52,611 nucleotides of DNA from a virus: positions 1 through 52,611 of IMG/VR virus record IMGVR_UViG_3300047378_000193; one strand, written 5' to 3'. Made by a program: the position numbers and the translations under genes. How positions within the stretch are numbered: the stretch's first letter is position 1; each line of letters starts with the position of its first letter. Below the pieces are notes generated by a model. The model did no database searches, was not told where the DNA came from, and saw only the letters and a list, made by a program, of their open reading frames with translations. Positions 1 through 50,893 of this stretch are shown piece by piece.

Positions 1-110
1 TCATAGTATATATCTATTACTTTAGATTTTTGTTCGCTAGTTAGATCACCCCAGTCTTTCTTGAAGAGGTTTCTTGATATTTTTAATAGTGCGTAAGATT
101 TTGTCGCCAT
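1..110 (-). CDS. Small hypothetical protein, cut by the left window edge
   Basis: Reading leftward from an ATG at 110-108, the frame stays open to the window edge (36 codons). The protein begins MATKSYALLKISRNLFKK and continues with WGDLTSEQKSKVIDIYY. It is basic at its N-terminus and I do not recognise a family. If the window ends are joined as a circle, the frame reads two more codons (E, L) and stops at TAA, giving 38 aa. It would then overlap the start of the gene at the other window end, a tight spacing typical of this leftward operon. It lies just downstream of the tRNA-like hairpin. That it is a gene is inference from the clean frame and the A/T-rich leader. Confidence 0.4.
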   Translation of the reverse strand, partial: MATKSYALLKISRNLFKKDWGDLTSEQKSKVIDIYY

Positions 111-134
111 AATTTTATAGTTTTATTAGTTAGT

Positions 135-174
135 AGTCGTTAGTGGAATCGAACCACCTCTAACCTTTACGACT
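135..174 (-). other. tRNA-like minihelix hairpin (T-arm plus acceptor-like stem)
   Basis: On the minus strand this reads AGTCG, a bulge, TTA, a bulge, GTGG, loop TTCGATT, CCAC, TAA, CGACT. The 3' side is twelve contiguous bases that can all pair, as in the stacked acceptor and T stems of a tRNA, and GGTTCGATTCC matches the tRNA T-loop consensus exactly. I could not build a normal D arm or a 7-base anticodon loop upstream, so it is not a standard tRNA gene. It could be a degenerate tRNA, a tRNA-like processing or attachment element, or a chance hairpin. Confidence 0.35.
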
Positions 175-190
175 TAGTTACTCGATAGTA

Positions 191-418
191 CTATTGTTCT
201 AGTACTTCTCGAGCGATCACTGGTACACTTGTACTTGAAGTATAAGATTTATACTTGATGAAGCACGCCATTGTGTCTAGTTTTGACTTCATTACTTCAT
301 ACACTTTATCGTGATTGTAAGTAACTGTTTTACCATTTTTGAAGTTGACAGTGATTAGTTGATTTTTACCGATTAAAGATTTTCTTATTACAAATCTTTT
401 TGAAATTAAAGTTGACAT
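191..418 (-). CDS. 75 aa protein, paralogue of the gene at 777-1007
   Basis: The function is not recognised. The protein is clearly homologous along its whole length to the one at 777-1007: both have (S/T)L.SKRF..RKSLI near the N-terminus, then (V/T)FKNGKT, YNHD, VMK.KL(D/E)TM, and KYKSYTSSTS followed by PV..R near the C-terminus. It is soluble, with mixed charge and no signal or membrane segment. The start ATG follows an A/T-rich leader (TTTAAATATAATAACT). A copy of the 39-bp motif lies upstream at 448-486 and a tRNA-like hairpin lies downstream. The two paralogues appear to be the first genes of the leftward transcript, the usual place for early host-takeover or regulatory proteins; that role is inference. 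Confidence 0.75.
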   Translation of the reverse strand: MSTLISKRFVIRKSLIGKNQLITVNFKNGKTVTYNHDKVYEVMKSKLDTMACFIKYKSYTSSTSVPVIAREVLEQ

Positions 419-447
419 AGTTATTATATTTAAAAGTTATTAATTAT

Positions 448-486
448 TTACATAGTTATTATCCATTGAGTACTGTATTTTGTTTG
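448..486 (-). promoter_or_regulatory. 39-bp repeated motif, copy 1
   Basis: On the minus strand this copy contains CAAACAAAATACAG, an 11-base spacer measured from ATAC, then GATAATAACTATGTAA. Its two relatives at 577-615 and 1045-1083 have the same length, orientation and internal spacing. It sits about 30 bases upstream of the 75 aa gene. The fixed spacing of two conserved blocks suggests a promoter or a DNA-binding site of the phage. It does not match the Bacteroidota TAnnTTTG promoter on the minus strand. Confidence 0.55.
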
Positions 487-576
487 AATACGAGTGTACT
501 TTTGTTTATTAGTAGAGAAGTAGTAGATAGTCTTACTCTAAGTCTCTTTGTTTGTAACTTAACTTATTAGTTGTTG

Positions 577-615
577 TTACATATATATTATCAGAGAGCG
601 ACCGTATTATGTTTG
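577..615 (-). promoter_or_regulatory. 39-bp repeated motif, copy 2
   Basis: On the minus strand this copy contains CAAACATAATACGG, the same 11-base spacer measured from ATAC, then GATAATATATATGTAA. No open frame follows it before copy 1. The roughly 90 bases between copies 2 and 1 include complementary ends (AGAGA and TCTCT on the minus strand), so it could drive a short untranslated RNA or act in tandem with copy 1. On the plus strand, TATGTTTG within this copy fits the Bacteroidota -7 box, but no matching upstream box was found. Confidence 0.5.
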
Positions 616-639
616 TAAGAAATATAAAGAAAAGAAGAG

Positions 640-700
640 CGAAGTGCAGAGTTTCTACGAAGTGCTATACACGAGGTGTATTACCTCCACACTCGCGTAG
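640..700. other. GC-rich structured segment with a direct repeat and nested stems
   Basis: This is a GC-rich patch in very AT-rich surroundings with no open frame. CGAAGTGC occurs twice (640-647 and 658-665). CTACG at 655-659 pairs with CGTAG at 696-700. CGAGGTG at 672-678 pairs with CACaCTCG at 688-695, with one bulged A, and the two 3' arms are directly adjacent. This resembles a branched RNA or a DNA hairpin site. It lies just downstream of the 76 aa gene on the minus strand, so it could be the 3' end or a processed part of that transcript. The rest of 616-776 shows no gene. Confidence 0.35.
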
Positions 701-776
701 GACGGAGTCTACTCTTCCGATTCTATTTCAAGATCAGGCCAATGTAGTTTATTAGATTATCTTACTAGTGCAGTAA

Positions 777-1007
777 TTAGTCTGTAATTAATACAGATCT
801 AACTACTACTGGAATACTAGTTGATGAGGTATATGACTTATACTTTTCCCAACAGTTCATAGTTTCAAGTTTTGCTTTCATAACATTGAAGGCATCGTCA
901 TGATTATACTTTGCAGTCTTTCCATTTTTAAATGTTACTTCAATAATAGTGTTAGTGTTGATTAACGATTTGCGAACTAAGAATCTTTTTGATTGTAATG
1001 TTTTCAT
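777..1007 (-). CDS. 76 aa protein, paralogue of the gene at 191-418
   Basis: The function is not recognised. It shares its whole length with the 75 aa protein at 191-418 (SKRF..RKSLI, TFKNGKT, YNHDDAF, VMKAKLETM, KYKSYTSSTSIPVVVR) but is clearly diverged, so the duplication is old or both copies are under selection. It has no membrane segment. Copy 3 of the 39-bp motif lies about 40 bases upstream, and a GC-rich foldable segment lies downstream, before copy 2. The order motif, small gene, foldable RNA is therefore repeated for both paralogues. It is the first gene leftward of the divergent control region. Confidence 0.75.
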   Translation of the reverse strand: MKTLQSKRFLVRKSLINTNTIIEVTFKNGKTAKYNHDDAFNVMKAKLETMNCWEKYKSYTSSTSIPVVVRSVLITD

Positions 1008-1044
1008 AATGTAAGTATTTAAGTTTGTTATTAATATGTTTAAG

Positions 1045-1083
1045 TTACATAGATATTATCAAGATTGATCCGTATTTTCTCTG
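1045..1083 (-). promoter_or_regulatory. 39-bp repeated motif, copy 3
   Basis: On the minus strand this copy contains CAGAGAAAATACGG, the 11-base spacer measured from ATAC, then GATAATATCTATGTAA. It is the outermost of three copies and lies directly upstream of the 76 aa gene. It is probably the main leftward promoter or a regulator binding site. A T-rich run precedes it on the minus strand. Confidence 0.55.
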
Positions 1084-1281: not shown

Positions 1282-1332
1282 GTGACATAAGCCTGTTAAG
1301 GTTATATAGTAAGGGGCTATTGTCACACTTTT
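1282..1332 (+). terminator. Terminator-like hairpin upstream of the rightward genes
   Basis: GTGACA, two unpaired bases and AGCC (1282-1293) pair with GGCT, two unpaired bases and TGTCAC (1315-1326), followed by CACTTTTTA. This is an intrinsic-terminator shape placed before, not after, a plus-strand gene. It could end a short RNA made from the GC-rich island, act as an attenuator for the rightward operon, or be part of an origin or regulatory structure. Confidence 0.4.
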
Positions 1333-1385
1333 TATAATTGTTAGTTGTATTGAACATACAAGTAAATAACCGCCTTTTCATGTAA

Positions 1386-1400
1386 GTATATAATGTATAC
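1386..1400 (+). promoter_or_regulatory. Possible -10 region or operator upstream of the rightward block
   Basis: GTATATAATGTATAC is an inverted repeat (GTATA / TATAC) around a TATAAT-like core, 16 bases before the first rightward start codon. It could be a -10 element or a regulator binding site. No convincing -35 box was found, so this is a weak call. Confidence 0.2.
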
Positions 1401-39137: not shown

Positions 39138-42100
39138 ATGTTTAAATTAGAAGGTGAACAATACTCATTAGAGCAAGTAACTTCAGCTGCAGAGCAATCT
39201 AACATGTCTCTTGAAGATTATTTAAAAGAGTATAACATTAAAAAGTTAGAAGAAACTGTAGAGCCAGTGGAAAAGCTAAAAGATGTTGTAGAAAAGGATG
39301 CAACTGTAACATCGATAAAACCGGAGCAAGCATCCGAGAATACGGAATTAGAGCAGGTAGATACTTCTTTGGAGTTACAAGATCCTGATCCAGACAAACC
39401 TTTATCTGCTAGTGAAAAAAGAATAGCAACTAGAAAAAAGAGAAAGCAAGAAAAAATAGACGCTTTAAAAGCTGAAGCAATTTCAGCCACTAATGAGATA
39501 CAAGGTAGAGTTAATAATATACCAGAGCAAGATATAATAAGTGCTCAGGCTAATAACTATTTTGGACCTATAAAGAGTAGAGAAGACAGAACAACCGTGA
39601 GTAAAACCATGGTTGGAATGATGGGGCCAACAGTGTCTTTTGAACCTACATTTGAATCAGATGAAAGTTATACTAAATACTTGAAAGAAACCTTAGGTAA
39701 AAAGTATGATCAATATCTAGGTTATTTAGATACAAAAAAAATAAAACCTTTAGACGTACAGAATAAAGCTCAGTTAGAAGAAATATATAATGAATCTGAA
39801 TTACAGGTTAAAGACAAAGTGTATAGCAACAGCTTGTTTAACGTGCCTGAAGATGTGCAAGAGTATATGGTGGCTAGTCCAGACTTTGCTAGTGGCGCAG
39901 AAAGCTTAGAAGCTCAAAAGTTTTTAATTCAAGAGCAAAAAGAAAGTATAGATCAAAACTACAAAAGTTACGAAGAGGCTAAAAAACAATGGGAATCTGA
40001 AGCCTTACCACTTAAACAAGATGTTGAAGACATTAAGAATCAAATAGATAGATTTAAGTTTTATTCCGCCGGTGCATCTCAAGAGCAAGCGGATCAATAC
40101 AATGAATTAATAGAAACTTATAACTATAAAATACAGCAGTGGGAGGAAAAAGGTTTTAACGACTTACCTGTGTTTTTGAACTCACAAGCTAAACTAGTAA
40201 ACTCACAGCAAAAAGATTACTCTAAGATGCTTGATGACTCTAGAAAAGCTTTAGTGGAGTCTGATTTGTTTGAAAAAAATCTAAAAAAAGATTATTCAGT
40301 AAGCGCTAGAGTTGGTAGAGCTTTCGATGAGTTCTTTGTGCAGTCTGGTAGGAATTTTATAGATTTAACAGCTGAGATAGGATTAAAAGCTGCTAGAACA
40401 GCTGGTTTTGCTTATCAACCTCTTTCTTTCTTAACGAGTCCAGAGAATTCAGCAAAAGTAGATTCTTTAATAGAGACTATACAAAAGAACAACAAAAACT
40501 ATAACCTAGGTATGACTTCTAAAAGAGAAAACATACCTACAGCACCATCAATAGATGATATAGGTAAAGATGGTTTATCTGTGTGGGACTGGACTTCTAT
40601 ATCTCTTCAAGATAGTTCACCAACAATATTAACTACCTTTGTACCTGGTGGTCTTGGTATAAAAGGAGCTGCTAATGTTTCTAAAGCAGTGAAAACTGGT
40701 AAAGGAGTAAAAGACGCCTTACAAAAACAAAAAGCCCTATGGCTAGCTGGTAAAAGGACTGTTCAAGGAACCTTTTTTGTCGCTGAAACAGGTGGTAAAT
40801 ATGGAGAGTTGCAAACTGACGAAGCTTCTAGGGAAAAAGAAATAAAGTTTTTATACTCAAAACTAGACAATACGGAAAGTGTAGAGGATAAGACCAAGAT
40901 ATACGATAGAATTAAAGATCTAGAAGAAGTAGAAGATTATAGTTTACTACAAAAAGCGTTTACATCATTTGGAGCTGGGGCTACAGCCACTTATCTTGAG
41001 AGTATAGGTACTTTAAAGATGCTAGAACCAGCCAAAGGACTAGCAAAGCAAATAGGTATAAGTGCTGCTAAAAAAGAACTTTATAAGCAACCTGTCAGAT
41101 TTAGCGCTAATTTAATAGGTAAAACTTTATCAGGTTTAAAGTCTCTACCTAAAAATTTAATTGGAGAAACATTAGAAGAAGCTGCTACAGAAATATCTCA
41201 TAACGCTTTAGATATACTAGTGTTAGATGAGAATAAGTCCATGTTTGAAGGTGTAGACAAAGACTTTATAGCTAATACTATGGTTAGTAGTTTTGGTATC
41301 ATGGCTCCTAAAACAGGTGGTAATATACTAAACATTGTTAAAAGTGAGTTTAGAACTAAAAGTGAAATATTTGATAACCAAAAACTAGCTAGTGAACTTA
41401 TAGAGTTAAACGAGTCAACAACGCCAGAAAACTCAAAACAACTTAGAGATAGAAAAAAACAAGTGCTAAAAGAGTTAGCTCTTAGCGACGCTATTAGTTT
41501 GCATAAGTTAAGGTATATGACAGCGGCTCAAATAGAGGAAGTTGCTGACATTAACAGGCAAATGAGGCAAGTTAATGGTAAGTTTGCACAGTTAGGTGGT
41601 TTAGGTGATTTAGGTGAAGCTGAAAACAAACGTGTTAAAAAACAACTAGAAAATGAGTACTCTAGCTTAACCACTGCTAGGCAAGAACTTCTAGACGCTA
41701 AACAAAGATCAAACGCTAAGAAAGCCGCAAATATAAATGAAGCTTTAGGTAACGCTGCTAGAAATTCTGAATCAGCTTTTTACTTCGGTGTTAATAACTT
41801 TTACAACGATCTTACTATGACTCAAATGGGTGACGGTGATTTTATTTCTATAAAAGGTGAAATAATAAAAGATAAAGATGGTAAAGCTATAATAAAATAT
41901 GAAAACCTAGACGATCAACTAGCTAAGTACAAAGAAAAATTATCTGAAGAGGAATTCAACAAGTTTAAAAAAGAAATTGAAGACGGAGACTTTAATGCTA
42001 AGCAGTTTGGAAAAGATATAATAGTAAACCAACCTGTTATAGACAGGAATATAGCTTTAGCGCCTACAAAAACAAGTGCTCAGTACGCGGCTGTTGCTCC

Positions 42101-45100
42101 ACTAGAAGAATTATTCCACTTAAGTGTAGCTCAGAAAAGTATAAAATTTGACTCTACAGCTAAAAATGCTGTTTTAGAAGCTGAAAAAGTATTAAAAGAG
42201 AAAAAAGATCTTGGTGTTATCTCTGAAAAAGACTACAATGGTTTAAAGAAAAGATTTGATCTTTATAGAGACGGCAAAGATTTTAATGCTGAAGAATTTA
42301 TAGCTCAAATTAATAACGCTATATCTTTAGGCGCTATAAACAGATCAGACTTAGAATCAACACCATCATTCAAAAAGTTTTTAAATAACACTATTAGATC
42401 TACATTTGGTGATATGTCTTGGATGCTAAGGTTAGAAAACTCTGACGATGTTTTTAATCTTGTTAAAAATTTCCAAACAGATGTTTCTAAAGGTGTAACT
42501 TTCCAAGCACCTGATAAGGAGGAGGTTAAAACTTCTTTATCTGAAGATATTCAAAACGATTTAGAAAAGCTAGAAGATAGTTACTTTGATGGAGAGATAG
42601 ACGAATATCAATTCGAACAAAAACGTGATGATTTAGAGCGTAAATTAAAACAAGCTGAAGAATCAGAAACTGTAGAAAAAGCAGAAGCTAAAGCTGTAAA
42701 AGAAATTGACTCTGTAGATAAAATAGTTAAAGAAGCTACTACAAGAGTATTTAAAAGCCCTGAGGTTTCTGAAAAAAATAAAAAGATAGCTTCAATTAAT
42801 GAAGACATCGTAAAAGAAATGACAGCTTTAGGTGCTAATAGAATTTCTGATATAAAAGATCCTGATGTTAAAAAAGCTATAGTCGACAAATTAGGTAAGA
42901 ATAATATTGGTGCTGTTACTGAGTTAGCTAAAAAAGCAGCAGCCACTAGTAGAAACCTACCTATAGACGAAAACTTAAAAGTAGGCTACGAAGAATTCTT
43001 TTTAGGTTTTAGTGAAGAGTTATCTGCTCTTATAAATTCCTATAAAGTTAATGTTGATGGTAAACAAGTTCCTTTCGGTGCTTATATGAATCAAAACTTA
43101 CCTATTAGATATGGTAATATACTAGAAAGATCTTTAAAAGGTAAATTAAAAGGATCTGAAAGTTTATCTAGTGATAAAAATGTAAAGAAAGAAGTGGGGT
43201 CTTTCACAGCAGAACCTTCAATCGAAACAACTACCGCTAGTCAAGAAACTGTATTAGATCAAATAGATGTAAGAAAGTTTGGCCCAGCTAAGGATAAAGT
43301 TGATGAAGTATCTAGTATAGTGCAAGTTGAAGATGGAGAAAGACCTACTTATAAACAGTTAGCGGATAAGTTTATAGAACCTGTTTCTATGGAGCTGTTC
43401 AATGTACCTGGTAAAAAAATACAGGGTAAAGCAACTTTAACAGATGCTGAAGCAAAATCCCTACAAAGATTGTTTGTTAGTCCTGATAACGTTAGAAAGC
43501 TTGTAAAGACTATGCCTCCTTACAACGTTGCCACTAGTGAAGCTGTTGTTGGTGATCAAGGTGAAATAATAGATGTATCTAAAGATATTAGAGGTAGATC
43601 TATAGGTTTATCAAATAAATTTATCAAACAATTTTACCAACCAGTTAATAGAGCTATACCTGGTATTTCTAGTCCAAAAGGTAGAAGCTTAGGTCAAACA
43701 AGTCAAGGTCAAGTATATGAGTTAAAGCCCGAGTTTAAGGGTAGAGTCTCTAACGAAGCCATAAAACAAATTCAAAACAGTGTAGGTGTTACAGAAGCTG
43801 GTGTACCTAATGAAAAAATATCCGCTGATAATAGAACTAAGTATGGTACTACTCTAACAGGTTTTGCTAAAACTTATATAGCTAATGTTATAAATATAAC
43901 AGGTAGATCTAAGCAAGCTATTAAGCAAGAGCAAGCTGATACAGCTGCTGGTAAAGCTAACATGATGCTTAGTAAAGCTGATAAAAGTTTTTTAGCTATA
44001 ACTGGTAAAGAGGCTAATATAGATTTTAATGATAAAAAAATAGTTAAAAAATTAAAACAAGATGTTTTTTCTATACTAGGAAACTCAGAGTTTGGTGATT
44101 TTAACGAAGAAGAGTTTGTTAAATACTTACTACCTTTAGCTACCAAAGGTTATGATTATAGATTTAAAACAGTAAATGGTAAGAGAGTTTTAGTTGATGA
44201 TTCTAAAAACACTAGAAATGTAATATTTCAAGGTAGAAGAGACTTCTTTAAGTCATATAATGAATATAGAAAAAGTAAAGGCTTAAAGCCTGTAAAACAT
44301 ATTAAAAACGCTAGAACTATTACTTTTAAAGACTCTTCAGGTCAGAATAAAACAATAAAACTAGCTATCTTAAAAAATCAATCAACTATAGGTTTAAACT
44401 CAGGTAAGTTTGGTGAGACGTTAGAGGATAGAGTTTTAACGGCTCAGGATCAAAGGAACGGCTTGAAAAGAATTATAGTGAGTTTGAAAAAGTTTGCAGA
44501 TGAAAATCCAAACGATTTAACCACTGTACCAATGTTTTTAACCATGTTAAATAGTAACACTGACGGTTTAGTTAGAACAGCGGCTATACCTAAGTGGATA
44601 ATGTACAAAGAAGGTTTAAAAGACTCTGACTATGTGTATGAACACACTCAAACAGCTTCTGACACTATAGTAGAGCTTATGAGAGCTATATATAAAAGCA
44701 AAAACAATGCTGAGTTATTAACGGAGTTTGATAACATAATGAAGCACTTTGATGTTGCTATTATACCTAAAGAAAATGATAAGAAAGTAAATACACTTTA
44801 TAAGCAAAACGGTCCTAAAGAAGGTGATGTTTCTAAAACAAGGTATGATGTTAAAATTAAATACCCTGGAGAAGATGGCTTCCCTGTTAGATATGAGTCA
44901 GCTAACAAATTAAACGATGCAGGCATAAAGCTACAGTCTCTAAATGATTTTGTAGATACTAAAAAAGAAACAACATTAGGTAAACAAAGTAAAGCTGAGA
45001 AAATAAATTTAAGCAAAACTTTTAACGATATACTAGAGAGCAAATCAGGTATACCTAGTAAAAAGAAATACGGTATTGTTGAGGCTATAACAAAAGGCGC

Positions 45101-47012
45101 TAGTAAAGGTAGATTTAATTTCTTTATACCGCCATCTGCAGAAGATTTTGTTGGTTTATTATATCCTACACTTGGAAAAGGGAAAATTGGTGATGCTCAA
45201 ATGTCTTGGTACAAGGCTAACTTAATAGATCCATACGCTGAAGCTATGAATAAATTAAGTAAGGCTCGTGTGTATTTAACAAACAACTATAATCTATTGA
45301 AAAAACAATTAGGTGTTGTACCTAAGAATTTATCTAAGAAAATAGAAGGAACAGATTACACTAAAGAACAAGCAGTGAGAGTGTATATATGGAATAAACA
45401 AAAAATGAATATTCCTGGTATTAGCAAAAGAGATATTAACAAGTTAAGTAAGTTCGTGAAAAACGATGCTAACTTACAAACGTTTGCTGATCAATTAATA
45501 AACATGCAATTAGGTGATGGCTACGCTAAACCAAAAGAAGGTTGGCCTGCTGGAACTATAACAACAGATATACTCGAAGGATTAAATACCACCAAGAGAG
45601 CTAAGTACTTAAAAACATGGCAATCAAATGTAGACGCTATATTTAGTGAAGATAACCTAAACAAGTTACAAGCTATATATGGTTTAAACTATAGAAAAGC
45701 ATTAGTGAACATGTTAGAGAGAATGAAGACTGGTAGGAATAGAAGTTTCCCAGGTGATACATTAACAGGTAGGTTTACTGATTGGTTAACTGGTAGTGTT
45801 GGTGCTATAATGTTTTTCAACACTAGATCAGCAGTTCTACAAACAATATCAGCTATAAATTTTATTAACTTCAAAGATAACAATGTGTTCGCAGCTGCTA
45901 AAGCTTTTGGTAATCAAAAACAGTATTGGGCAGACTTTATGACGCTAATGAACTCTGACTTCTTAAAAGAGAGACGTGGAGGTTTACGTATGAATGTAAA
46001 TGAAGCTGACATTGCTGATATGGCTAAAAAAGGTGGTGTTAGAGGAGCTATAAGTAAATTACTAGAACTAGGTTTTGCACCTACACAGATAGCGGATAGT
46101 TTTGCTATTGCTTCTGGTGGATCTACTTTTTATAGAAATAGAATAAATACTTACAAAAAACAAGGTTTATCAGATAAGCAAGCTGAGAAAAAAGCTTTTG
46201 AGGATTTTAGAGAGACAGCTGAAGAGTCACAACAATCATCTAGAGCAGATAGAATATCTATGCAGCAAGCAAGTCCGCTAGGGCGTGTTGTATTAGCTTT
46301 TGCAAATACTCCAGCGCAATATGCTAGAATTATAAAAAAAGCCGCTAGCGATCTTAAAAACAACCGAGGTGATCGTAAAGAGAATATATCTAAGATAATT
46401 TATTATGGAGCTGCACAAAACTTAATATTTAATGCTTTACAACAGGCTTTATTTGCTCTTGCTTTTAGCGATGAGGAACCTGAAGATGAGAAAAAAGAAG
46501 AAAAGTACTTAAATATAGCCAATGGTATGTTAGACTCAATACTAAGAGGTGCTGGAATTGGTGGAGCTATTGTTACTGTTGGTAAAAATACAGTTATTAA
46601 AATAGCAAAAGAACTTAAGAAAAGTAGACCTCAACTTAAAAATATAGCTCTTGAGTTAGCAAAAATATCACCTCCTGTTTCAGCTAAGTTATCTAGACTA
46701 CAACAAGCTGGTAGATCTTACGATTGGAATAAAGACGAAATGATGGAGAAAGGTTTTAGTTTAGACAATCCAGCTTACTTGGCTGGTGCTAATGTTATCT
46801 CTGCTCTTACAAATATACCACTTGACAGAGCTATTAAAAAAGCTAACAATGTTGTTTCAGCTACTTCACAGGATTTAGAAGCTTGGGAACGTATTGCTTT
46901 AATAGGTGGTTGGCAAGACTGGGAGTTAGGTATTAAGAAAGATGAAAAACCTAAAAAATTAAATAAAAAGAAATTAAGAAAAAAACTTATAAAAAAGACT
47001 TTAATAAAGTAA
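39138..47012 (+). CDS. Giant internal virion protein (2624 aa)
   Basis: This is the largest gene in the window. It begins MFKLEGEQYSLEQVTSAAEQ, then a Lys/Glu-rich disordered region. An ejection-type helical body covers about 250-1200, with a hydrophobic patch at about 510-530. Large regions near 1600-2450 resemble phage polyvalent-protein modules: FFIPPSAEDFVGLLYPTLGKGKIGD, then IMFFNTRSAVLQTISAINFINFKDNN, QKQYWADFMTLMNSDFLKERRGGL and RVVLAFANTPAQYARIIKKA. At residues 988-994, PLEELFH sits where a zinc HExxH could be, but the first His is Glu. The gene takes the T7 gp16-like slot, followed by the endolysin. No RNA polymerase motif was seen. Confidence 0.7.
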   Translation: MFKLEGEQYSLEQVTSAAEQSNMSLEDYLKEYNIKKLEETVEPVEKLKDVVEKDATVTSIKPEQASENTELEQVDTSLELQDPDPDKPLSASEKRIATRKKRKQEKIDALKAEAISATNEIQGRVNNIPEQDIISAQANNYFGPIKSREDRTTVSKTMVGMMGPTVSFEPTFESDESYTKYLKETLGKKYDQYLGYLDTKKIKPLDVQNKAQLEEIYNESELQVKDKVYSNSLFNVPEDVQEYMVASPDFASGAESLEAQKFLIQEQKESIDQNYKSYEEAKKQWESEALPLKQDVEDIKNQIDRFKFYSAGASQEQADQYNELIETYNYKIQQWEEKGFNDLPVFLNSQAKLVNSQQKDYSKMLDDSRKALVESDLFEKNLKKDYSVSARVGRAFDEFFVQSGRNFIDLTAEIGLKAARTAGFAYQPLSFLTSPENSAKVDSLIETIQKNNKNYNLGMTSKRENIPTAPSIDDIGKDGLSVWDWTSISLQDSSPTILTTFVPGGLGIKGAANVSKAVKTGKGVKDALQKQKALWLAGKRTVQGTFFVAETGGKYGELQTDEASREKEIKFLYSKLDNTESVEDKTKIYDRIKDLEEVEDYSLLQKAFTSFGAGATATYLESIGTLKMLEPAKGLAKQIGISAAKKELYKQPVRFSANLIGKTLSGLKSLPKNLIGETLEEAATEISHNALDILVLDENKSMFEGVDKDFIANTMVSSFGIMAPKTGGNILNIVKSEFRTKSEIFDNQKLASELIELNESTTPENSKQLRDRKKQVLKELALSDAISLHKLRYMTAAQIEEVADINRQMRQVNGKFAQLGGLGDLGEAENKRVKKQLENEYSSLTTARQELLDAKQRSNAKKAANINEALGNAARNSESAFYFGVNNFYNDLTMTQMGDGDFISIKGEIIKDKDGKAIIKYENLDDQLAKYKEKLSEEEFNKFKKEIEDGDFNAKQFGKDIIVNQPVIDRNIALAPTKTSAQYAAVAPLEELFHLSVAQKSIKFDSTAKNAVLEAEKVLKEKKDLGVISEKDYNGLKKRFDLYRDGKDFNAEEFIAQINNAISLGAINRSDLESTPSFKKFLNNTIRSTFGDMSWMLRLENSDDVFNLVKNFQTDVSKGVTFQAPDKEEVKTSLSEDIQNDLEKLEDSYFDGEIDEYQFEQKRDDLERKLKQAEESETVEKAEAKAVKEIDSVDKIVKEATTRVFKSPEVSEKNKKIASINEDIVKEMTALGANRISDIKDPDVKKAIVDKLGKNNIGAVTELAKKAAATSRNLPIDENLKVGYEEFFLGFSEELSALINSYKVNVDGKQVPFGAYMNQNLPIRYGNILERSLKGKLKGSESLSSDKNVKKEVGSFTAEPSIETTTASQETVLDQIDVRKFGPAKDKVDEVSSIVQVEDGERPTYKQLADKFIEPVSMELFNVPGKKIQGKATLTDAEAKSLQRLFVSPDNVRKLVKTMPPYNVATSEAVVGDQGEIIDVSKDIRGRSIGLSNKFIKQFYQPVNRAIPGISSPKGRSLGQTSQGQVYELKPEFKGRVSNEAIKQIQNSVGVTEAGVPNEKISADNRTKYGTTLTGFAKTYIANVINITGRSKQAIKQEQADTAAGKANMMLSKADKSFLAITGKEANIDFNDKKIVKKLKQDVFSILGNSEFGDFNEEEFVKYLLPLATKGYDYRFKTVNGKRVLVDDSKNTRNVIFQGRRDFFKSYNEYRKSKGLKPVKHIKNARTITFKDSSGQNKTIKLAILKNQSTIGLNSGKFGETLEDRVLTAQDQRNGLKRIIVSLKKFADENPNDLTTVPMFLTMLNSNTDGLVRTAAIPKWIMYKEGLKDSDYVYEHTQTASDTIVELMRAIYKSKNNAELLTEFDNIMKHFDVAIIPKENDKKVNTLYKQNGPKEGDVSKTRYDVKIKYPGEDGFPVRYESANKLNDAGIKLQSLNDFVDTKKETTLGKQSKAEKINLSKTFNDILESKSGIPSKKKYGIVEAITKGASKGRFNFFIPPSAEDFVGLLYPTLGKGKIGDAQMSWYKANLIDPYAEAMNKLSKARVYLTNNYNLLKKQLGVVPKNLSKKIEGTDYTKEQAVRVYIWNKQKMNIPGISKRDINKLSKFVKNDANLQTFADQLINMQLGDGYAKPKEGWPAGTITTDILEGLNTTKRAKYLKTWQSNVDAIFSEDNLNKLQAIYGLNYRKALVNMLERMKTGRNRSFPGDTLTGRFTDWLTGSVGAIMFFNTRSAVLQTISAINFINFKDNNVFAAAKAFGNQKQYWADFMTLMNSDFLKERRGGLRMNVNEADIADMAKKGGVRGAISKLLELGFAPTQIADSFAIASGGSTFYRNRINTYKKQGLSDKQAEKKAFEDFRETAEESQQSSRADRISMQQASPLGRVVLAFANTPAQYARIIKKAASDLKNNRGDRKENISKIIYYGAAQNLIFNALQQALFALAFSDEEPEDEKKEEKYLNIANGMLDSILRGAGIGGAIVTVGKNTVIKIAKELKKSRPQLKNIALELAKISPPVSAKLSRLQQAGRSYDWNKDEMMEKGFSLDNPAYLAGANVISALTNIPLDRAIKKANNVVSATSQDLEAWERIALIGGWQDWELGIKKDEKPKKLNKKKLRKKLIKKTLIK

Positions 47013-47474
47013 ATGGATAAAATAAGCGATCATATAACATTACGCGAGGGTATAAATTCTTATACAGCTAAAAGAATGGGTATAGAAAACATACCTGATG
47101 AGTATCAGATTACTAACATGTATATATTAGCTCATAAGGTTTTTGAACCTTTACGTAAATGGGTTGGCGGTCCTATAAAAATAAACTCTTTTTTTAGATC
47201 AATAGAGTTAAACGAAGCAATAGGAGGTAGTTCAACATCACAACATTGTGAAGGCAGAGCTATGGATATAGACGATACTTATGGTTGTAAAACTAACTCT
47301 GAGATGTTTAACTATATTAAAGACAACTTAGATTTTGATCAGTTGATATGGGAGTTTGGAGATGATGAAGAGCCAAATTGGATTCATGTAAGCTACTGTT
47401 CAACAGATGAAAATAGAAAAAGATGCTTAAAAGCATATAAAGATAACGGAATAACTAAATACGAAATAATATGA
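47013..47474 (+). CDS. Endolysin, M15-type peptidase
   Basis: This 153 aa protein is a zinc D-Ala-D-Ala-type peptidase that cuts peptidoglycan cross-bridges. VGGPIKINSFFRS precedes SSTSQHCEGRAMDID with His78 and Asp85, and WIHVSY supplies His125, the three usual zinc ligands of the M15_3 family. LIWEFG is another family motif. There is no signal peptide, so it needs a holin (candidates at 17321 and 18432). It starts directly after the giant virion gene. Its end overlaps the next gene (ATGA). Confidence 0.9.
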   Translation: MDKISDHITLREGINSYTAKRMGIENIPDEYQITNMYILAHKVFEPLRKWVGGPIKINSFFRSIELNEAIGGSSTSQHCEGRAMDIDDTYGCKTNSEMFNYIKDNLDFDQLIWEFGDDEEPNWIHVSYCSTDENRKRCLKAYKDNGITKYEII

Positions 47475-47602
47475 AAACACCATTGTATAAAAAAGCAACT
47501 TGCTGGAAAGGATATAAATCAGTAGGAAAGAAGAAATCACCTAGCGGAAAAAAGACTAAAAGTGGAAGAATAAAAATGGTAAACAACTGCGTGAAGAAAT
47601 AA
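47471..47602 (+). CDS. Tiny basic Cys-containing protein
   Basis: This 43 aa protein (ATG 47471) overlaps the endolysin stop by 4 bases (ATGA). It reads MKTPLYKKATCWKGYKSVG, followed by KKKSPSGKKTKSGRIKM and VNNCVKK. It belongs with the small basic Cys-containing proteins at 17475 and 17752 by composition (KKSP, two Cys). It is the last gene of the rightward block before the terminator. Function is unknown; DNA binding or virion packing is a guess. Confidence 0.6.
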   Translation: MKTPLYKKATCWKGYKSVGKKKSPSGKKTKSGRIKMVNNCVKK

Positions 47603-47652
47603 GGAACAAAAAACATATAGGCGTACCATACCTAAAAGTTCCTGTAACCAAG

Positions 47653-47682
47653 AAAGGGCCCTCGTATTGAGAGCCCTTTTTT
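47653..47682 (+). terminator. Intrinsic terminator at the end of the rightward block
   Basis: AAAGGGC-C-CTC (47653-47663) pairs with GAG-A-GCCCTTT (47669-47679), with one C/A mismatch, loop GTATT, and a T run to 47682. It is the clearest terminator in the window and lies at the junction of the converging gene blocks. Confidence 0.85.
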
Positions 47683-47708
47683 AGTATACATGTGTATAGC
47701 ATATTGAG

Positions 47709-47744
47709 TTTTTTATACATATTAGTTTTTATATGTATAAAAAA
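47709..47744. repeat. Perfect AT-rich inverted repeat between converging blocks
   Basis: TTTTTTATACATAT (47709-47722) and ATATGTATAAAAAA (47731-47744) are exact inverted copies with an 8-base loop. A smaller inverted repeat TATACA-TG-TGTATA lies at 47685-47698. They sit between the rightward terminator and the 3' end of nrdA, and may end leftward transcription. The A-tail orientation is not the usual one. Confidence 0.6.
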
Positions 47745-47761
47745 GTCATAACTTTTAGCCT

Positions 47762-49480
47762 TTAGCCATCACAAGCTAAACAATCTTCATTCATTGCTTG
47801 CTGAGCTATATCACCACGTAAAACAGATTCTGTTCTAGTATAATATAAGGTTTTAACACCTTTCTTCCAAGCATCAAAATGAACTTTATTCAACCACTTA
47901 GGTGTAGCTTCAGACGGAAAAGCTAAGTTTAAACTAACCGACTGATCTATATATTGTTGCCTCAGTCCAGCTTGATTAACTAATTCCAGTTGATTAATCT
48001 CTTTAAACGTTTTAAAAACTTCCTTAGCAGGTATGTCGTGAAGTAAAGTAACACCATCAAGAGCATCGATACCCTGTACGCTACCTCCGTCAGCCAATAT
48101 TTTATCCCATGTTTCATTGTTATTAATTTTTAGTTTTCTTAATAGCTTTACTAACGTCGGATTTTTCCTAATAAAAGTCCCCTTTGCACTCTGTTCTGTA
48201 AAAACATTTGCAGCCCACGGCTCAATACCTGGACTAACATTACCGCTAAGCTTACTATTACTGACAGTAGGAGCGATAGCCCTAAGATGAGTGTTACGCA
48301 TACCCGTGCCAACACACCAAAGAGGTTCCCCATAGATCTCAGCAAGATCTCTAGAGGCTCTTTCACTTTCGATTTTAATCTGGCTAAATATCTTCCTTGT
48401 TTCAAACTGAGCAAGTAAACCTTCAAAAGGAATGCTTTTTTCTTGGAGATAGGTGTGCCATCCAAGTACACCCAGCCCAAGTGCTCTTCCTTTTTGAGCA
48501 GAACGAACGGCATTTTCAAAACCTCTAAGTCCTTTTGCTCTTTGAATAAACTCCTCCATAACGCCGTCAAGAAACCACGTAGCGTCGTATATAAGGTTAG
48601 TGTCTTTCCATTCTTCATATTTTGCTAAATTTAATGATGACAAACAGCATACAAAGCTATGATTCTCATCTGTTGTTAATGTTATCTCCGAACATATGTT
48701 AGTCATATGTACTTTTAATCCGTTGTCTTTATATGCTTCTGGATTTGCTTTATTAACATTTCCTTTAAACATAATATACGGTTCTCCAGTTGACTTTCGT
48801 TTTCTAAGTAATTTACTCCATCTAGATCTTGCTTCTTTATCTCCTTGTTCAAGCTTACGCATAAACTTGTCACCAATAATTGCGCACTGATGTAAGTTAA
48901 GCGATTGTCTGTTAACATCTCCTTTAGGTTCCCTGATTTCAAGCCACTCCTCGAAGTCATCATGTTCAATGTTGATATTAACTGAGGCAGCTCCACGACG
49001 GACACTCCCTTGATTAGTTGCAAGAATTGTTGAGTCATATATCTTGCAGAAAGGTACGACTCCATCTGATGTTCCATTACCTGTTATTCTAGCGCCAGCG
49101 GGTCTAATTTGATTTATACCGATACCAACTCCACCGCCATGCTTAGCGAGTAGCATCATCTCTAAATTTTTACTACCTATGTCCTGTATCGAATCTGCTA
49201 CATCAATCCCAAAACAGCTAATAGGCAAACCGCGGTCAGTACCAGTGTTGCTGAGTACAGGGCTAGCAAGACAAAGCCAGCCATTCCAGATGTATTCAAA
49301 AAACTTTTCAGCCATTTCAGGTTTATAAAGTCTACGAGCAACCGTTTTAGCGACTCTTTGGTATGCTTCTCTAGGCGTTTCTCCGTCAAGTAAATATCCC
49401 CCGGATATTGTCTTCTTGTATACGTCCGTATTACCCCACGCAGGGTAATCTTCTCCTTTGATCCATTCATTATTCCACAT
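47762..49480 (-). CDS. nrdA: Ribonucleotide reductase class I, large (alpha) subunit
   Basis: This 572 aa protein reduces ribonucleotides to deoxynucleotides for phage DNA synthesis. SCFGIDV carries the first redox Cys (Cys89). NICSEI (261-266) holds Asn261, Cys263 (thiyl radical) and Glu265. CCLSS (278-282) contains the second redox Cys. LYYTRTES (Tyr546-Tyr547) is the radical-transfer pair, and the C-terminus NEDCLACDG has the CxxC exchange pair (567, 570). It lacks the N-terminal ATP-cone of the full-length enzyme (about 750 aa), so dATP feedback is probably absent. It is translationally coupled to the upstream gene (TAATG). Confidence 0.95.
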   Translation of the reverse strand: MWNNEWIKGEDYPAWGNTDVYKKTISGGYLLDGETPREAYQRVAKTVARRLYKPEMAEKFFEYIWNGWLCLASPVLSNTGTDRGLPISCFGIDVADSIQDIGSKNLEMMLLAKHGGGVGIGINQIRPAGARITGNGTSDGVVPFCKIYDSTILATNQGSVRRGAASVNINIEHDDFEEWLEIREPKGDVNRQSLNLHQCAIIGDKFMRKLEQGDKEARSRWSKLLRKRKSTGEPYIMFKGNVNKANPEAYKDNGLKVHMTNICSEITLTTDENHSFVCCLSSLNLAKYEEWKDTNLIYDATWFLDGVMEEFIQRAKGLRGFENAVRSAQKGRALGLGVLGWHTYLQEKSIPFEGLLAQFETRKIFSQIKIESERASRDLAEIYGEPLWCVGTGMRNTHLRAIAPTVSNSKLSGNVSPGIEPWAANVFTEQSAKGTFIRKNPTLVKLLRKLKINNNETWDKILADGGSVQGIDALDGVTLLHDIPAKEVFKTFKEINQLELVNQAGLRQQYIDQSVSLNLAFPSEATPKWLNKVHFDAWKKGVKTLYYTRTESVLRGDIAQQAMNEDCLACDG

Positions 49481-49758
49481 TATGTTAAATATAATATTAT
49501 GTAGGCTATTGCTACGTTTAAATTAACTGCAACTAAGTTCCATTGCTTAGCCACAAATACTTGCGGTATTGATATTATACCTGCTATTACATATGTTACC
49601 ATACCTATCTTGTCTGGTAGTAAATGAGGACTCATCATCATAAATGAAGTCCCCATATATCCTAATCTACTTGATAACCTCTCTACTGGAGTCAGCTTTT
49701 TCTGCCTCACTAGACTCTTGAGCCACTTTTTCTTTAAGCTTTTCGATAGCTTTTTCAT
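49480..49758 (-). CDS. Small membrane protein
   Basis: This 92 aa protein begins with a basic stretch (KKLSKSLKKKWLKSLVRQKK), then ERLSSRLGYMGTSFMMMSPH and hydrophobic spans (VTYVIAGIISIPQVFVA, WNLVAVNLNVAIAYIILYL). This SRLGY.G.......L....G...YVI.G....PQVF.AKQWNLV..N pattern is one I associate with small phage membrane proteins between nrd genes. The role is unknown. It overlaps the upstream coiled-coil gene by 92 bases; an inner start at 49656 (58 aa) would reduce the overlap but remove the ERLSSRLGY segment. Confidence 0.6.
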   Translation of the reverse strand: MKKLSKSLKKKWLKSLVRQKKLTPVERLSSRLGYMGTSFMMMSPHLLPDKIGMVTYVIAGIISIPQVFVAKQWNLVAVNLNVAIAYIILYLT

Positions 49759-49906
49759 ATCCTTCCATGTTTTTTATTGTCTCTAATGTACCTACAGCTA
49801 AATCTTTTAGATAACTATTTTCATCTAACAGTTGCTGAGCTACTCTTACTAATGCTTCTATTTTTTTCTCTAATAGATCTAATCTACTTTGTTTTTGTTT
49901 TGTCAT
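49667..49906 (-). CDS. Small coiled-coil protein
   Basis: This 79 aa protein is helical with heptads: MTKQKQSRLDLLEKKIEALVRVAQQLLDEN, then YLKDLAVGTLETIKNMEGYEKAIEKLKEKV, then an acidic/Ser tail. A similar LE..++AL..V...LL.EN..L++L.VG.LE.IK...GY.+AI..LK protein is found in nucleotide-metabolism clusters of other marine phages, function unknown. It lies between nrdB and the membrane protein gene. Confidence 0.6.
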   Translation of the reverse strand: MTKQKQSRLDLLEKKIEALVRVAQQLLDENSYLKDLAVGTLETIKNMEGYEKAIEKLKEKVAQESSEAEKADSSREVIK

Positions 49907-49924
49907 TTTATAATAAATTATTTG

Positions 49925-50893
49925 TTACCATATGTCTTCAAAGTCCTCTCCTTCATTCGCTTTCGAATAATCCGTCGGCCTAATAGCAAAAAAATCAGTA
50001 TGAGTGACGCCCCCGGTAAGATGATAAAACCAATCGAGATTATTCGCTGCCTTTTGGTCGTATGCAAAGTAGTTACCCAAATCGACATAACCAAGTTCCA
50101 CAAGTTTTTCATTTGTTCTTTTCTTTATAAAGTGTTTTAAATCATTAGCAGATATTCCCTCTATATCACCCATCTCAAACATCTTATTGATATACTTTGT
50201 TTCTAAAGATACCATTGTCTCAGCAGCTTTTATAACATCTTCTCTACATAAATGCAACAGTTGATCATCTTCTTCACACATATGTCTAAACAATTTACAA
50301 CCCATTTTACTATGTAATGATTCGTCTCTTACAGACCATTTCATTTGTTGCCCAATACCTTTAAGCAAATTTCTAAGCTGAAAAGAATAAAGTACCGCAA
50401 AAGCAGAATATAAAGAAACTCCTTCGGCAAATGCAGAAAATACAGCAAGAGACTTAGCGATACTAGTTCTACTGTTGCCAGTATAAGATACGAGATTATC
50501 AAATCTATCTGCTGTAGCAGGTTCATGTAAAAACGCTTCATAGTCTTCTAGTTTTAAAGTTTCATTTAAATAACTATAAGCAACAGCATGTATTGTTTCT
50601 TGAGAACCAAACATCATTGCCATTTGTTGGATCTCGTGTTTTGGAAACCATCCAACAACTTTTTGAGTCCAATAATCGGAAACTGCGCATTCTGTTTGAG
50701 CGAACCCAAGTAAAATATTTCCGACGAGGTTTTTTTCTTTTTCGTTAAGTTTTTCATTCCAATCTTTTATATCGCTTTGCATTGAGATCTCTGTGTGTAA
50801 CCAAAATGCTTGTGCTTGTTTTAACCAGCCCTCAGTATAATACTCAGGATATTCAAATGGTTTATACGCTACGCGCTCATCAAACAATCCCAT
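49925..50893 (-). CDS. nrdB: Ribonucleotide reductase class I, small (beta) subunit
   Basis: This 322 aa protein makes the radical used by NrdA. Metal ligands are TE68 in LLGFAQTECAVSDYW, Glu99 and His102 in QETIHAVAY, Glu157 in FAEGVSLYSAF, and Glu191/His194 in RDESLHSKMG. Tyr106 sits four residues after His102, at the radical-Tyr position. The first ligand is Glu, where the E. coli enzyme has Asp. The C-terminus (NEGEDFEDIW) is the acidic tail that docks to NrdA. Its start overlaps the stop of the small gene upstream (TAATG). Together with NrdA it raises dNTP supply. Confidence 0.95.
   Translation of the reverse strand: MGLFDERVAYKPFEYPEYYTEGWLKQAQAFWLHTEISMQSDIKDWNEKLNEKEKNLVGNILLGFAQTECAVSDYWTQKVVGWFPKHEIQQMAMMFGSQETIHAVAYSYLNETLKLEDYEAFLHEPATADRFDNLVSYTGNSRTSIAKSLAVFSAFAEGVSLYSAFAVLYSFQLRNLLKGIGQQMKWSVRDESLHSKMGCKLFRHMCEEDDQLLHLCREDVIKAAETMVSLETKYINKMFEMGDIEGISANDLKHFIKKRTNEKLVELGYVDLGNYFAYDQKAANNLDWFYHLTGGVTHTDFFAIRPTDYSKANEGEDFEDIW

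Follow-up and report, generated by a model that had tools for sequence, protein, structure and literature searches.

The left end of the viral DNA analysed here carries copies of a promoter motif that recurs before the early genes of related phages, and at the level of sequence comparison a clade-wide array of phage promoters was established. With moderate confidence, we read the segment at positions 1 to 1,083 as the front end of the early gene cluster that reads leftward, in which sigma-type phage promoters would be read by the host RNA polymerase together with a phage sigma factor and from which two small RNAs would be made as proposed below. The clade consists of uncultured viruses whose hosts are probably marine Flavobacteria.

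The window, meaning the whole stretch of DNA analysed, was a 52,611-base IMG/VR record, and its source is an uncultured podovirus with a host that probably belongs to the Flavobacteria. For the terminase of the window, identity was 64% with ctfjg026 (MW202828), 44% with the Flavobacterium 'elemo' phages and 29-38% with Cellulophaga and Tenacibaculum phages, among them phi46:3, which is classed in Pachyviridae. Structural genes were found on the rightward strand, and genes for nucleotide metabolism together with early genes on the leftward strand, at the right end of the window and at 1-1007. Compared to the 58.8 kb relative G001, a portion of the leftward cluster was absent between the two contig ends of the window, which we estimate at about 14 kb. 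A 2,624-aa giant virion protein was encoded at 39138-47012; its conservation was mainly in the last 690 residues, and it had no match among known proteins.

The first-pass annotation had described three 39-bp motifs with a shared orientation and a fixed 11-base spacer. In the whole window, GATAATAnnTATGTAA had just three exact matches, located at 448-463, 577-592 and 1045-1060, all on the minus strand and each preceded by ATAC and then exactly 11 bases (ATAC-11-GATAATA), which bears out both orientation and spacing. The motif exists, but it extends over about 42 bp (TTACAAAnTAAATACGA-N9-GATAATATannTGTAA), with an extra TTACA block 5' of the part described, and the three minus-strand motifs belong to this longer element. 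All three copies were confirmed, but a fourth and weaker one had been overlooked. The promoter copies and the elements lying between them were as follows.

1045-1083 (-): copy 1 of the promoter motif, 36 bits, preceding the gene for the 76-aa protein; +1 predicted near 1048.
577-615 (-): copy 2 of the promoter motif, with 42 bits the best-scoring one; +1 predicted near 580.
448-486 (-): copy 3 of the promoter motif, 36 bits, preceding the gene for the 75-aa protein; +1 predicted near 451.
745-787 (-): fourth promoter copy, weaker, 23 bits; predicted +1 near 749.
662-672 (-): GTGTATAGCAC element, which in many relatives recurs a short way upstream of motifs.
487-576 (-): stretch between copies 2 and 3, 90 bases with no obvious open reading frame.

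The copy at 745-787 overlapped the end of the 76-aa gene, stood before the RNA element at 693-740 and was kept in L002, L003 and L009. The stretch at 487-576 was 85-96% conserved in L002, L003 and L011.

When the relatives were searched with the seed TAC-N11-GATAAT alone, 183 sites were found, with a strand ratio of 171:6 in favour of the gene strand. Positions outside the seed were also conserved in these sites, namely C in ACAAA (99%), G after TAC (78%), A after GATAAT (95%) and a purine at the predicted +1 (99%), and conservation reached +14. With a position weight matrix, the five near-complete genomes were found to carry 11, 12, 22, 10 and 10 sites; four of them thus had 10-12, and the 22 sites of G013 include two near-identical repeated stretches. 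Nearly all of these sites lay on the leftward strand, with one divergent exception, and the sites were mostly intergenic and typically 25-65 nt upstream of genes. The seven opposite-pointing sites in relatives were all located at the head of the cluster, adjoining a leftward site. In a scan of 2.9 million viral contigs that allowed spacings of 6-14, there were 142 matches at N10 compared to 20 at the eight other spacings together, and the ACAAA block was present in none of the 20. The reversed pattern, used as control, gave no match in 16 genomes. In bacterial genomes the spacing distribution was flat, with 13 matches at N10 and 8-17 at the others, and full motifs occurred in only three contigs of that set, binned in metagenome genomes; these are probably phage because each encodes a homologue of the 75-aa protein. 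No motif was found in the sister phages MW202828, elemoE and phi46:3.

The earlier suggestion of a phage-specific promoter heading the leftward genes therefore finds good support in the strand bias, the fixed spacing, the typical distance of 25-65 nt and the absence from host genomes. Its assignment to one local module was too narrow, the motif being the general promoter of the leftward early and replication half in the clade. Loss of the motif with retention of the genes was looked for in relatives carrying the 75-aa gene and was not found; most of them have the motif directly upstream.

The motif contains an imperfect dyad, TTACA...TGTAA, and could be taken for an operator bound by a phage repressor or activator, a reading that we regard as very unlikely. 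The partial dyad symmetry and the very high conservation would suit an operator, as would the perfect palindrome GTGTCGTTAACGACAC before the early genes of a sister phage, but a symmetric operator needs no orientation bias such as 171:6, and the near-constant distance to gene starts, the -10-like block and the +1 purine argue for a promoter. The palindrome was observed in MW202828 at 43867-50116 (L116), where it precedes about ten early genes and is hairpin-capable; whether it serves as an N4-like hairpin promoter or as an operator is posed here as a question.

As a sigma-type promoter, which is the reading we prefer, the motif would consist of TTACAAA (-38 to -32), AAATACGA (-29 to -22) and GATAAT (-12 to -7), and would be repeated before early genes and operons. 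Setting GATAAT at -12 to -7 placed +1 on the 99% purine, with a pyrimidine before it, and we infer that GATAAT is a -10 box with the +1 purine 12 bases on. Among 26 RNA elements with a GATAAT upstream, 19 had the start of their CCTG core 14-16 nt beyond the G at -12. The sigma-type +1 is supported because the conserved RNA of the 693-740 type begins there.

This start position, with conservation to +14 and 99% purine, fits a sigma factor better than a phage or virion RNA polymerase of the T7-like or N4/crAss-like kind, which we consider quite improbable as the reader. Such an enzyme would account for the fixed spacing and for AATACGA, which equals -16 to -10 of the T7 promoter and would make the G of GATAAT the +1, and giant virion proteins of 2,600-3,900 aa stand where N4-type phages encode their polymerase. 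Yet no match to the RNA_pol family (PF00940) was found in 14 genomes, in a search whose control was itself silent, the D.DGD motif was absent from the giant proteins tested, which had no PDB relative, and the RNA element begins at the sigma-type +1. Like N4 (Schitoviridae), the clade comprises podoviruses whose late genes end with one for a giant virion protein; unlike in N4, the polymerase signature was not found in the clade, and the clade promoter is not a hairpin. A giant protein without D.DGD and without Pfam or PDB match was considered as a crAss-like virion polymerase and rejected.

The leftward cluster of G001 encodes a 253-aa sigma70-family protein. The Pfam family Sigma70_r2 was matched at 3e-5 (24.1 bits compared to a cut-off of 24), profile comparison with PDB chains of SigA, FliA and RpoD gave E values of about 1e-8, and Foldseek returned SigA with a probability of 1.00. 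Homology to both region 2 and region 4 was thus found, with region 4 below the Pfam cut-off. The sigma gene is missing from the window, presumably because the contig is incomplete. It was present in 12 of the 13 relatives with the motif and in none of the three motif-free sister phages, profile search included, and 22 of the 23 motif contigs that reached 55 kb encoded it within the same cluster. Two contigs caught at other spacings had neither the clade sigma nor the clade terminase. The motif was found in 66 of 80 sigma loci, with 323 sites on the sigma strand compared to none on the opposite strand and none in the shuffle. Promoter and sigma thus co-occur, in evidence that is comparative throughout, and shared descent alone could link both. 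G010 and G036 had the motif with no sigma detected, and both may be incomplete. In G006 and G030, the terminase or sigma frames were interrupted by many stops, probably due to sequencing indels. The phage sigma had no match among 50,697 isolate phage records.

From these comparisons, it is likely that the phage sigma reads the motif, and the reader would be host RNA polymerase carrying the 253-aa factor. In the E. coli sigma factor, Q437 and T440 read position -12. In the profile alignment to SigA, their places are taken by a G and by an R that does not vary, a combination that would suit the G at -12. Phage sigma factors with promoters of their own include T4 gp55 and SPO1 gp28. The clade resembles phiEco32 (gp36) and phage 7-11 in combining a phage sigma70-family protein with a repeated phage-specific promoter, which for the phiEco32 sigma is TAATGTATA (PMC4331800). 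Unlike in the phiEco32, 7-11, T4 and SPO1 systems, the clade motif is 42 bp long, is built of three blocks and precedes early genes, among them operons leading to the sigma gene, and the host group is another one.

In L317 and L339, and weakly in L352, the sigma was present with a variant promoter, ACACGGA-N19-GATAAT, in which the -38 to -32 block (TTACAAA) was replaced, AAATACGA was gone and the GATAAT -10 was unchanged. No change in sigma region 4.2 was seen to accompany the altered upstream block in these three loci; since region 4.2 was constant despite the change, the upstream blocks may be recognised by another factor, perhaps a second one encoded by the phage. A possible candidate is the neighbouring 206-aa helix-turn-helix protein. 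Its gene was observed adjoining that of the sigma at 55348-55968 (-) in G001 and at 9381-10004 in L317. The late genes had a separate short motif, (C/T)A(A/T)GTRATnATA, with a log-likelihood of 65.6 compared to about 31 in shuffles. A copy of this candidate late promoter was observed in the window at 1379-1390 (+), and others upstream of the late genes of relatives. Because the late genes have a different motif, the sigma could serve them instead, and it may serve late promoters as well as or instead of the early ones. The sigma gene is itself downstream of motif promoters, and therefore another factor must start the cascade.

These limits bear on an alternative in which the unmodified primary sigma of the host reads the motif, perhaps assisted by an activator of the phage that binds the upstream blocks, and the phage sigma turns on late genes by the logic of T4 or phiEco32. 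That the host enzyme must start any cascade, that late genes carry a motif of their own and that region 4.2 does not track the upstream-block change all favour it, and the early genes of phiEco32 and 7-11 use host promoters (PMC4331800). We nevertheless consider it unlikely, as the motif lacks the flavobacterial sigmaA box TAnnTTTG (PMC9723704), which its position profile did not fit at -12 to -5, bacterial genomes showed no enrichment of the motif, and the three sister phages are without both sigma and motif. Initiation in Bacteroidota is by hypothesis shared with flavobacterial sigmaA promoters, and the clade motif has GATAAT plus upstream blocks instead of that box. A search of the leftward strand of the clade phages for consensus host-type promoters found none in the spaces between genes.

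With the phage sigma as the preferred reader, copies 1045-1083 and 448-486 would give rise to the transcripts for two early proteins.

777-1007 (-): small protein of 76 aa, the first member of a conserved pair; 34 relative loci.
191-418 (-): 75-aa small protein, second copy of the conserved pair.

The two proteins were 66% identical (E 7e-36), and their genes come after motif copies 1 and 3, respectively, in accordance with the paralogous pair of the first-pass annotation. Most of the 34 loci with relatives of the 76-aa protein showed the same block upstream. The pair was kept in G001, G002, G011 and G012 and in fragments in G013, and it was absent from the three motif-free sister phages. Fold and family searches with the 75-aa protein, for whose module the first-pass annotation had suggested a possible host-takeover role, gave no match. 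Weak Pfam and PDB matches, enterotoxin B among them (E 0.007-0.04, over a short stretch), were taken as chance, and SspE (PADLOC, 2e-4, 42 residues) was rejected, the paralogue giving it no support.

Two small RNAs, supported by compensatory changes across aligned relatives, were located on the same strand.

135-174 (-): 40-nt tRNA-elbow minihelix, 16 nt after the stop codon of the 75-aa gene.
693-740 (-): structured RNA, GGCCTG-hairpin-GGAAGAGTAGACTCCGTCCTAC, 72 bits to model R1.

Foldable segments had been noted at 135-174 and 640-700, as the ends of a duplicated module. Comparison supports RNAs at both places, but they are of two unrelated types, and single-sequence folding did not support them (z -0.41 and -1.45, not significant). 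The segment 640-700 flanks, on the downstream side, a conserved element with its core at 693-740. As their foldable segments are unrelated, the two modules do not form identical units.

The minihelix had a 6-bp acceptor, a AAAGGTTAGA linker (GGTTA), a 5-bp T stem, a TTCGATT loop and the tail ACTA, with the anticodon arm and D stem both missing, so that it forms no tRNA cloverleaf. ARAGORN and Rfam found no tRNA in the window, and the element had no Rfam match. The search yielded 34 distinct copies, every one of them on the same strand as the motif, compared to none in reversed sequence; 33 of the 34 lay outside open reading frames, and most were 5-192 nt after a stop codon. The minihelix follows a gene of the 75-aa family in the window and in L002, L003, L014, L017, L019, L022 and L032. 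Compensatory changes were found in 9 of 11 pairs. Among 23 sequences, 99.6% of the cells were paired (65% when shuffled), a percentage that arises partly by construction since the search required pairing, and covariation was 0.896 compared to 0.251; slid controls were at most 49% paired. The reversed sequence and the swapped control (5.7 versus 2.9 of 6 pairs) are for that reason the fairer measure. The position of the minihelix suggests a 3'-end processing signal; most likely, the transcript of the 75-aa gene would end in it, with a cut by RNase P or RNase Z setting the 3' end of the mRNA.

The RNA at 693-740, which the weak copy 745-787 would produce, had the consensus GGCCTG-hairpin-GGAAGAGUANACUCCGYC. 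Distinct full elements numbered 78, and for 71 of these the locus also had a motif on the same strand; the core alone was matched in 17 further places, where the 5' part mostly differed. The covariance model gave 97 matches, 96 of them beyond the window, in relatives. Among 88 distinct sequences, 68 double-change cells were counted compared to 22.5 in shuffles (0/500), and slid controls failed. No Rfam match was found even at E 5. An origin of GATCGGAAGAG from an Illumina adapter was rejected, as it varies and covaries across independent metagenomes. A conserved, terminator-like hairpin, GTGACA..AGCC...GGCT..TGTCACACTTTTT, was observed at 1283-1345 (+), and also before the RNA of the 693-740 type in several relatives.

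Relatives do contain genuine tRNA genes, and the two elements might be remnants of tRNA genes and DNA sites. The compensatory changes in the minihelix and the excess of double-change cells in the second RNA weaken this explanation, because decaying genes do not keep pairing, and we hold it to be hardly probable at all.

Other elements of the relatives also resemble tRNA or tmRNA. Perfect acceptor partners were found in 44 tRNA-like elements not called by ARAGORN, compared to a chance expectation of about 11 among all 64. The 80-nt elements scored 57-65 bits against RF00023 (gathering 47).

L141 1298-1377, L334 5301-5383, L221 969-1049 and L447 724-805 (-): 80-nt tmRNA-like RNAs with G3-U70, A73 and tail ACTA.

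The 80-nt elements had the tRNA-like domain of tmRNA, with G3-U70, a stemless D-loop and a T-arm, and no tag-peptide frame or pseudoknots, 306 model positions being reduced to 13 bases. With lower scores included, RF00023 matches occurred in 15 of 38 genomes, several of them weak. Long tRNA-like elements, GGGCGTG...CACGTCCA and AACTAGG...CTAGTTA, were observed in many relatives (for example L276, L287, L325 and L002 9061-9160); their middles were variable, with no recognisable anticodon arm, and some abut the next promoter motif.

Like tRNA minihelices and the tmRNA domain (RF00005, RF00023), the clade elements have an acceptor stem, a T-arm with TTCGATT and a GG in a D-loop-like linker; unlike those families, their tails are mostly ACTA rather than ACCA, and the window element matches no Rfam family. 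Tentatively, and with rather low confidence, we propose that the 40-nt minihelices at gene 3' ends and the tag-less 80-nt tmRNA-like domains form a new class of tRNA mimics, which host tRNA-maturation enzymes would cut to punctuate early operons and of which some would perhaps be alanylated decoys of tmRNA/SmpB or EF-Tu, beside a self-contained sigma regulon.

These findings provide a readable transcription program for an uncultured phage group, one that the known sister phages do not have, in hosts whose own promoters are atypical. The sigma and promoter pair, if true, would offer a ready-made tool for orthogonal expression in Bacteroidota. As far as the Rfam library and literature were searched, the tRNA-elbow RNAs are undescribed, and the 40-nt form is near the lower size limit for an RNA with an intact tRNA elbow. 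With the tag-less tmRNA domains, the choice between decoy and processing signal becomes a testable question, and both the viral takeover of transcription and the purpose of such RNAs become testable.
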